Shown here one piece after another: positions 5,468-46,003 of a stretch of DNA of 64,000 nt; position 1 is the stretch's first letter, and every line of letters starts with the position of its first letter. The stretch is from Olivibacter sp. XZL3 (lineage in GTDB: Bacteria; Bacteroidota; Bacteroidia; Sphingobacteriales; Sphingobacteriaceae). Under the pieces are notes generated by a model, which saw only the letters and a program-made list of their open reading frames with translations, did no database searches and was not told the origin of the DNA. Made by a program: the position numbers and the translations under genes. Location of the stretch: positions 1-64,000 of the forward strand of contig NZ_SBJH01000055.1 of assembly GCF_004368405.1 (NCBI RefSeq). The letters are read 5' to 3'.

Positions 5468-6999
5468 CTATTCCATTGAAGCGTCTATCGGAATCGTAAA
5501 GCAGAATGTGCTTCCGTTTGTACCGTCACTCTCCACCCATATATTGCCGCCATGTTTTTTTATAATTTCTGAAGAAATGTTTAAGCCCAGCCCGACTCCG
5601 GGGATTTTTCGCCGAATGGCGTTGCTTGCCCTGGAAAAAAGCCCAAAAAGCCGCTCCTTTTCGCCAACAGGAATGCCAATGCCGTTATCGCTGATGCATA
5701 CTTGAACAGAGCTGGAATTGTCGGTAACCGATAGTTCGATATGCACGCGCGCGCTTCCAAAACAGTATTTGATGGCATTCCCGATCAGGTTGTTAAGCAC
5801 CTGCTCAATCCGTAGCCGGTCAGCGCTTATATTTCTTCCTACCGAACCGTGTATATGGATCTCGGCGTCAGGATTAATAAGTGTATGATTTTCAATAACT
5901 TCTCGAACCAGTGTATCCATGGAAAACTCCGTGAAGTCAAGGGGATGCGTGCCCGAAGTAACCTTGGAGAGATCGAGCAGTTGATGAACCATATCGTTTA
6001 GCTTGAGAAGCTGTTGTTTGGTTTTTTCCATCGAAGTAGTAGGCGCTGGCGCTAAACTTAAGTGTTCAATCTGTCTTTCAAACAATTGTATATAGCCCCA
6101 AGCTGCCGTGATAGGCGTTTTCAGTTCATGGCTGGCTACGCTAATGAAATTATCTTTCAACGTTTCTAGTTCCTTTTCCTTGGTAATATCTTCGAAAGCC
6201 ATTAACAGCATTTGGGTGTCGCTTTCCACTCGATATAGTTTTCTCGCGTTTAGCAGCATGCTTTTTTTTCCTATTTTTTCAAAATGATGCGTAATTTCAT
6301 AATCCTCAAAATGCGTGTTTTCCGGAATAATGGTCTCCAATAACTGCCGTAAAGCTGGGATATCCCATTGTCGATTGCCTAGCTCATAAATGTAACGCTC
6401 AAGTGTTTCTTCTCGACTGACCTGGAAGGTCCGGTAAAATGCCCTATTGGCTTTGCGTACAATAAGTTTGGCATCAAGTACCAATACGGGCTCCCTCACC
6501 GTGTTGATAATGCTGTCTGCATACGTTAAGTTGCTTTTTAAAAGGTCCTCTTTTTCTTTCTTATGGGTGTAATCACGTAAAATCTTGGTGAATCCCAAAA
6601 GCTTATCCTGCTCATCGTGCAGAGGGAATAACATACCCTGCGCCCAAAACGTTGATCCGTCTTTGCGTATATGATAGCGCTCATCCACTGCTTTTCCTTC
6701 TGACAGGGCGGCGTTGATTTCCTTTTGTGCTTGTTTACTCTTCCTATCTTCGGCGGTGAAAATTATAGCGAAGTGTGTTCCTATTATATCTTGCTCAGTA
6801 TACCCCAAGATTCTTTCGGCGCCGACATTCCATGTATTGATGAGACCCTTTGTGTCTGTTGTGAAAAGGGCATAATCTTCCAGGCTCTCGAATACGTTTT
6901 TATAGAATGAATCGTCCCTTCTGAAAAACTCCTGTTCCCTGCTATCTCTTTTGTTTCTTTTTTTGTCGTACCGGCTTCTCTATCGAACTTATTTTCCAT
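5468..6999 (-). CDS. PAS-PAS sensor histidine kinase, N-terminus out of frame
   Basis: This is a hybrid-less sensor histidine kinase that autophosphorylates on His and presumably signals to an unlinked response regulator. The long frame encodes most of a first PAS domain, a second PAS domain, an H-box (SHELKTPITAAWGY), an N-box (NLIGNAIKY) and G-boxes (DNGIGI, GVGLGL). No transmembrane segment is seen, so it is likely cytoplasmic. The reading frame holding the start of PAS 1 (FYKNVFESLEDYALF, NVGAERILGYT) runs back to a TAG without any ATG, GTG or TTG start. The natural start, ATG at 6999 (MENKFDREAGTTKK), is in another frame. The two meet at seven A (plus strand T, 6958-6964), read as A-AAA-AAA. 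One extra A, or a -1 slip, would give a 510-residue kinase. It could be a real mutation, programmed slippage or a sequencing error. Confidence 0.8.
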
Positions 7000-7128
7000 A
7001 ATATTCAAATGTCTACTATATATAAAAATTCAACATTGCAAATTGTTTAATAAAACAGCGCTTCGATAAGTAAGTGAGAAATAATGGGCAAGCCACGCTA
7101 TGGTGAAGATGGTTTTTAGGCTTAAACG

Positions 7129-7155: not shown

Positions 7156-7161
7156 TTTAAG

Positions 7162-7235
7162 TGCACTTGAAGGGAGTCGAACCCCTAACCTCCTGATCCG
7201 TAGTCAGGTGCTCTATCCAATTAAGCTACAAGTGC
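7162..7235 (-). tRNA. tRNA-Arg (anticodon ACG)
   Basis: A complete cloverleaf can be drawn. The acceptor stem is GCACTTG/CAAGTGC, the D arm is GCTTAATTGGATAGAGC, and the anticodon stem CCTGA/TCAGG has loop CTACGGA, giving anticodon ACG (read as ICG, Arg CGN codons). The T arm is AGGGG-TTCGACT-CCCTT and the discriminator base is A. The 3' CCA is not encoded. It has its own promoter and terminator and so is a single-gene unit. Confidence 0.97.
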
Positions 7236-45658: not shown

Positions 45659-45796
45659 AGATAAACCTTATAGAATGCCATGGCTTTTCCGGGATCAGTC
45701 GAGCTTTTCCTAGATGCTTCGGTAAATCGATTGCGCCATTCCTGGGTGGAGGAGAAACAACAAACCCCAGCTATTGCCGGGGTTTTAATGGTTTTG

Positions 45797-45871
45797 TGGA
45801 GGCTACTGGATTCGAACCAGTGACCCTCTGCTTGTAAGGCAGATGCTCTGAACCAGCTGAGCTAAGCCTCC
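45797..45871 (-). tRNA. tRNA-Val (anticodon TAC), second copy
   Basis: The 75-nt cloverleaf has acceptor GGAGGCT/AGCCTCC, D arm GCTCAGCTGGTTCAGAGC, anticodon stem TCTGC/GCAGA with loop CTTACAA (anticodon TAC), T arm ACTGG-TTCGAAT-CCAGT and discriminator A. CCA is not encoded. It is identical to the copy at 45929-46003 and lies 57 bp downstream of it, probably on one transcript. Confidence 0.97.
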
Positions 45872-45928
45872 AAAATGATTATCTCCGAAGAAGACAAATA
45901 AAATTTTTAGATTATAAAGAACTTTCTG

Positions 45929-46003
45929 TGGAGGCTACTGGATTCGAACCAGTGACCCTCTGCTTGTAAGGCAGATGCTCTGAACCAGCTGAGCTAAGCC
46001 TCC
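45929..46003 (-). tRNA. tRNA-Val (anticodon TAC), first copy
   Basis: This has the same 75-nt sequence and folding as the copy at 45797-45871. It is the promoter-proximal member; the promoter is at 46043-46073 and a GCGCC-TTTT-GGCGC hairpin (46009-46022) lies in the leader. Confidence 0.97.

Follow-up and report, generated by a model that had tools for sequence, protein, structure and literature searches.

Features of the Kinase Locus

The window (the whole stretch of 64,000 nucleotides of Olivibacter sp. XZL3 analyzed here) contains a sensor histidine kinase gene, the apparent start and the domains of which lie in two different reading frames. The locus is composed of the following features:

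6787–6999, minus strand: ATG-led short frame, the apparent gene start, beginning MENKFDREAGTTKK (71 codons; open-frame reading and coding score)
5468–6979, minus strand: long frame with its stop, a PAS-PAS-HisKA-HATPase_c sensor kinase without a start codon of its own before 6808
6958–6964, minus strand: run of seven A (A7) in the overlap of the two frames, the presumed place of a one-base frame break
6806–6808, minus strand: TTG, the first start-type codon of the long frame, within PAS domain 1 (codon list and Pfam)
7161–7235, minus strand: tRNA-Arg (ACG) gene upstream of the kinase, at which the synteny with congeners ends

The ATG is located at 6999–6997 (minus strand), and its frame of 71 codons is closed by the stop at 6786–6784. 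The long frame, which is −1 relative to the ATG frame, opens past an in-frame TAG (6982–6980), runs from 6979 to 5471 as 503 stop-free codons and is terminated by the stop at 5470–5468. Plus-strand T7 at 6958–6964 corresponds to seven A on the minus strand, where the ATG frame reads ACA AAA AAA GAA; a −1 frame change at this point carries the ATG frame into the kinase frame. A7 is the sole run of six or more A or T within the first 700 bases from the ATG. It starts 35 nt downstream of the A of the ATG and is a homopolymer near the 5′ end, the length of which sets the frame.

No in-frame ATG, GTG or TTG occurs in the long frame before 6808, and this frame is not translatable in full from a start codon. 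TTG 6808 corresponds to residue 58 of the long-frame protein, and the PAS match spans residues 26–136. This codon was ruled out as the true start, since it would cut PAS domain 1 and the homology starts well upstream. A non-canonical start was ruled out as well, because ATT, ATC, ATA, CTG and ACG are all lacking among the 25 long-frame codons preceding the conserved FYKN. The original prediction, in which the start was placed in one frame and the PAS and kinase domains in another, is borne out by the open-frame reading and describes the locus exactly; the same is true of its statement that the long frame has no start of its own.

PAS folds, HisKA and HATPase_c are found above the Pfam cut-offs in the long frame, which is the domain set of a sensor histidine kinase. 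The long-frame protein contains SHELKTP, NLIGNAIKY, DNGIGIP and GVGLGL (the phospho-acceptor box and the N, G1 and G2 boxes, respectively), and the catalytic boxes are intact. NCBIfam matches are to generic kinases, none above the curated cut-off among the 25 of 88 families listed. The upstream neighbour is tRNA-Arg and the downstream neighbours are SusC/SusD-like genes (named from translations), and no response-regulator-like translation adjoining the kinase was found by reading of the ORF lists. The gene encodes an orphan sensor histidine kinase of ordinary PAS-PAS type.

Three of the four congeners have a match to the kinase at E 1e-60 (33–36% identity), and the fourth lacks one. Synteny with G001, G002 and G004 continues smoothly from the hydrolase/GAPDH/PGK side, while in G003 it comprises those three genes only; tRNA-Arg adjoins the hydrolase in all four congeners. 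The window ORFs below position 7000 (at least 90 codons, E 1e-15), including the kinase and the SusC/SusD-like genes, have no match in the fetched congener stretches, which for G001 reach only 1.5 kb past the tRNA. Given the lack of any congener match above 36% identity at E 1e-60 and the end of synteny at tRNA-Arg, the kinase is an accessory gene.

Two further tRNA genes of the window, both tRNA-Val (TAC; 45796–45871 and 45928–46003), lie 56 bases apart, have equal Rfam scores and are perhaps a tandem duplicate.

Coding Statistics around the Junction

Coding log-odds were obtained with an order-4 periodic model trained on the strain's own genome minus the kinase's own ORF. The scores for 6999–6958 are +4.4 in the ATG frame, −10.8 in the long frame and −0.1 in the remaining one. 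The ATG and long frames are about equal in coding score between 6957 and 6850, and the frame switch is not placed by the scores in this interval. All three frames are negative at 6849–6800, and from 6799 down the long frame alone is positive. By these readings, the sequence does change frame somewhere between 6979 and about 6910. The long-frame coding score is 0.0575 per nt, compared with a median of 0.0673 for 398 long ORFs, among which it ranks at the 20th percentile; GC content is ordinary.

All three frames are negative in the 50 nt preceding the ATG. Over its first 42 nt, the ATG frame has a score of 4.2, a value reached by 19 of 861 non-coding ATGs (0.022) and by 35 of 399 long-ORF starts (0.088). 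The likelihood ratio provided by the coding score at ATG 6999 is only about 4, and an upstream ATG in another frame is weak evidence alone. Above the ATG, one candidate regulatory element is present:

7006–7033, minus strand: possible Bacteroidota-type promoter, TTG + 17 nt + GACATTTG, with one mismatch to the consensus

The consensus on which this element is based is the TTG/TAnnTTTG of Bacteroidota promoters. The candidate is the best of all placements tried from 7161 to 6900.

Relatives of the Kinase and the Ancestral Start

Among 399 sampled genomes of the family (the own genome included, the best three candidates per genome scored), 10 reach E 1e-93. Six of the nine non-self relatives (L116, L117, L118, L016, L017 and L019) match from the N-terminus, with 34–40% identity over almost the whole length. 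All six are single-frame genes, each with an ATG of its own that lies in the kinase frame, 7–20 codons ahead of the conserved FY; runs of six or more A are absent from the first 200 nt of their open frames (L017 has T6). An earlier family sample, which overlaps this one and also includes the own genome, comprised 301 genomes with the best five candidates per genome scored. Among 395 genomes of the class, the own genome alone reaches E 1e-93. A peptide-pattern search in named genome contigs revealed eight distant relatives, the viral contigs contained no ortholog of the kinase, and all plasmid matches were below 60% identity among the 5000 records listed.

The frame break is private to this sequence among the relatives found, which are 34–40% identical. 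The combination typical of a pseudogene, a frame lesion in a gene that is intact in its relatives, is present here with respect to distant relatives only. As a separate observation, the kinase relatives L005, L006, L007, L020 and L021 carry an NCRFLQ stretch of the kind present in LOV light sensors, and the window kinase is without it.

The two frames could also be explained by the loss of a start codon in the long frame. In this case, the ancestral start would have been located about 11–12 residues before FYKN, at a codon which now reads AGG, and ATG 6999 and A7 would be bystanders. The codon concerned is as follows:

6938–6940, minus strand: long-frame AGG codon situated 11 residues ahead of FYKN, candidate lost start (position counted from the codon list)

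The distance from the ATG to the F of FYKN is 12 residues in L116, L117, L118 and L016 (four of the six relatives), 20 in L017 and 11 (or 8, 7) in L019, and AGG, at a distance of 11, is one substitution from ATG. In addition, the promoter-like element just above 6999 would presumably provide such a gene with a leader of ordinary length. However, codons one step from ATG are common, and by our own estimate one is expected at this place about half the time. Moreover, the ATG frame looks coding ahead of A7, and the presence of A7 in the overlap is left unexplained. The loss of a start codon is distinctly unlikely on this evidence. Relatives at 34–40% identity are too distant to locate the ancestral start, and no ortholog close enough to settle it was found in the congener, family, class, named, viral and plasmid searches. 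The interpretation in the original prediction is partly supported; start loss by substitution in the long frame was omitted from its list of options.

Probable Slip Mutation at the Poly(A) Tract

The locus is best explained by a slipped-strand indel of one base in the poly(A) tract at the 5′ end, which probably, with a chance somewhat better than even, broke the accessory kinase gene. Translation from ATG 6999 would then depart from the kinase frame at A7 and end after 71 codons, and no normal kinase would be made except via rare errors. The break most likely arose by a one-base slip of this kind at A7, and recently, because the remaining 503 codons are stop-free and the catalytic boxes are intact. 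The two frames, the missing start, the intact domains and the single-frame relatives are observed directly; the location of the slip at A7, its recency and its presence in the living strain beyond the assembly are inferred.

In a set of 399 long ORFs, the first 75 nt contain no more than 14 runs of seven or more A in total. The location of A7 inside the zone of about 70 nt bound to hold the break is therefore unlikely by chance, which is suggestive. Runs of this length are mildly denser at the 5′ ends (14 in the first 75 nt vs. 7.5 per later bin, Poisson P 0.023), and a tract of seven A is of unexceptional length in this genome. According to the cited excerpts of PMC2831843, poly(A) tracts of 5–8 sit toward the 5′ ends of genes, and one 5′ poly(A) tract was measured as varying about 1,000-fold above the point-mutation rate. 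The slip at A7 is preferred over the loss of the start codon, being perhaps six times as probable. Of the four options originally listed, slip mutation or pseudogene fits best, and programmed slippage failed all the tests that were run except for the heptamer itself. The finding is an ordinary one and belongs with the frameshifts at 5′ poly(A) tracts already described in the literature.

Reversible phase variation represents a special case of the slip mutation and is covered by the confidence given to the latter. Here, A7 would function as a contingency tract, and the sequenced clone would be in the OFF state. This possibility is favoured by the position of the tract, 35 nt from the beginning of the ATG frame of a regulator gene, by the mild enrichment of long A runs at the 5′ ends of long ORFs (P 0.023), and by published reversible switches of the 5′ poly(A) type (PMC2831843, cited from excerpts). 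However, seven A is short, 14 runs of at least this length already occur at the starts of the long ORFs, and the tract is not conserved, as it is missing from the first 200 nt of the six relatives. A reversible switch is unlikely on balance. A7 could further be regarded as a contingency or leak switch which sets the fraction of cells or molecules with the kinase; together with the A9 of a TetR-type gene (described below), it would then form a lineage class of tract-controlled regulators. This extended version is even more doubtful.

Programmed Slippage as an Unlikely Alternative

Synthesis of the kinase at a set low level could be realized via programmed −1 ribosomal frameshifting or via transcription slippage at A7. 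The original prediction described A-AAA-AAA as a canonical slippery heptamer at which a −1 slip joins the two frames. This is formally right: A_AAA_AAA stands in the right frame, acts in the right direction and conforms to X_XXY_YYZ in the zero frame. However, the heptamer is frequent in ordinary ORFs of this genome: 221 long ORFs (415-kb sample of the own genome) contain 39 in-frame copies of AAAAAAA and 31 of AAAAAAG. The fold of the 78 nt downstream is no better than those of shuffled sequences (z −0.40; 66 of 200 shuffles are as good). No SD-like word was seen by eye 6–17 nt upstream (word list from the excerpted text of PMC4066793), and the frame transition is without conservation in all six single-frame relatives (34–40% identical).

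In the same excerpts of PMC4066793, downstream structures are described as not always found in prokaryotic frameshifting cases. Unstimulated frameshift-prone heptamers are given there as reaching 2.1 to 10 times the 0.055% background in E. coli, which is the range of the group and not the value of A_AAA_AAA itself. Slippage of E. coli RNA polymerase requires at least seven T and still more A (PMC6260861, in part), and the proven tssM slippage cases carry eleven and nine A (PMC4256274, in part). The heptamer and polymerase slippage rates are E. coli values and may not be those of this lineage. The lack of structure, of an SD-like word and of conservation, the commonness of the heptamer and the low published rates led to the rejection of programmed slippage as the main interpretation; it is considered very improbable.

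Possible Sequencing Error and Frame Breaks in the Genome

The frame break could be a sequencing or assembly error, in which case the true chromosome would contain an in-frame kinase and the length of the A tract would have been miscalled. The genome is a draft assembly of 122 contigs, and two of the three in-gene frame breaks read by eye in 782 kb sit at A runs, namely this A7 and the A9 in a TetR-type gene of contig C90. In the cited part of Antonov et al. (PMC3711429), unclustered BLAST-validated frame breaks are expected to stem from sequencing errors and not from genuine indels. Since these authors lean to error for unclustered breaks, this explanation is put at about one in five. Against it, 144 A or T runs of 7–9 occur in 221 long ORFs (415 kb), including two further downstream in the kinase itself, which indicates that the assembly is not generally poor at homopolymers.

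A frame-change scan of 415 kb of the own genome gave 52 events, three of which passed the filter, two of these being read as gene junctions. The scan of 400 kb of congener G004 gave 58 events, with five left after the filter, all of them junctions by eye. A wider scan covering 782 kb, for which the model was retrained and the penalty relaxed, yielded 118 events. Of these, 11 passed the filter; on reading by eye, three were judged to be in-gene breaks and the other eight junctions or doubtful cases. The three in-gene breaks are those of this kinase, of a SusC-like gene (contig C93, 207082) and of the TetR-type gene (contig C90, 18650).

The SusC-like gene (L095, C93 at about 207082, minus strand) is frame-broken, with no A/T run of six or G/C run of five within 60 bases of the position called as the break. 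The TetR-type gene (L112, C90 18281–18863) appears to leave its frame at the A9 (18661). TetR_N is found in the first frame, and the C-terminal piece in the second frame is without a Pfam match; this break rests on eye reading. The gene has no match at E 1e-15 in the four congeners.

The sensitivity of the scan depends on the position of the lesion: 105 of 120 simulated mid-gene deletions were found vs. 29 of 118 placed 30–60 nt after the ATG. Due to this poor sensitivity near the start, the counts of early breaks are low bounds, and the rarity of such breaks is not established. In a scan for coding frames without an early start, 14 of 601 frames were flagged, and this gene ranked second. Six of the other 13 flagged frames were viewed; one is the break in the SusC-like gene, and five resemble shadows of genes that start further downstream, or leaders of such genes. 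The numbers from the scans are compatible with young pseudogenes at a normal background level and also with consensus errors at a low rate.

Comparison with Known Systems and Significance

The closest published likeness is found in the 5′ poly(A) tract frameshifts of Orsi et al. 2010 (PMC2831843, cited in part), with which the kinase shares a short tract in the first tens of bases, a change of frame and a very short truncated product. In contrast to the present case of one sequence of a sensor kinase, switching was measured there with fusions. The family kinases L116, L117, L118, L016, L017 and L019 are alignable almost over their full length but differ in being single-frame, with their own ATG and no run of six or more A in the first 200 nt. 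Programmed −1 genes with A_AAA_AAG/A, such as dnaX and those of IS elements (PMC3711429 and PMC4066793, both in excerpts), have the slippery heptamer in the correct frame in common with the kinase. Unlike them, the kinase is without a found stimulator or conservation, and its break comes right after the start codon. In the rescue of tssM by transcription slippage, a poly(A) run likewise stands ahead of a frame break, but the run consists of eleven A (nine in a second case) vs. seven here, and the tssM rescue is experimentally proven (cited part of PMC4256274).

For annotation, the consequence is that an automatic pipeline might call a truncated kinase with a later start or a pseudogene at this locus. 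Greater weight would be attached to the finding only if the tract were shown to switch. If the break is real, the kinase would add to the regulators silenced by slippage in a 5′ poly(A) tract, and its loss would matter for the sensing repertoire of the strain.
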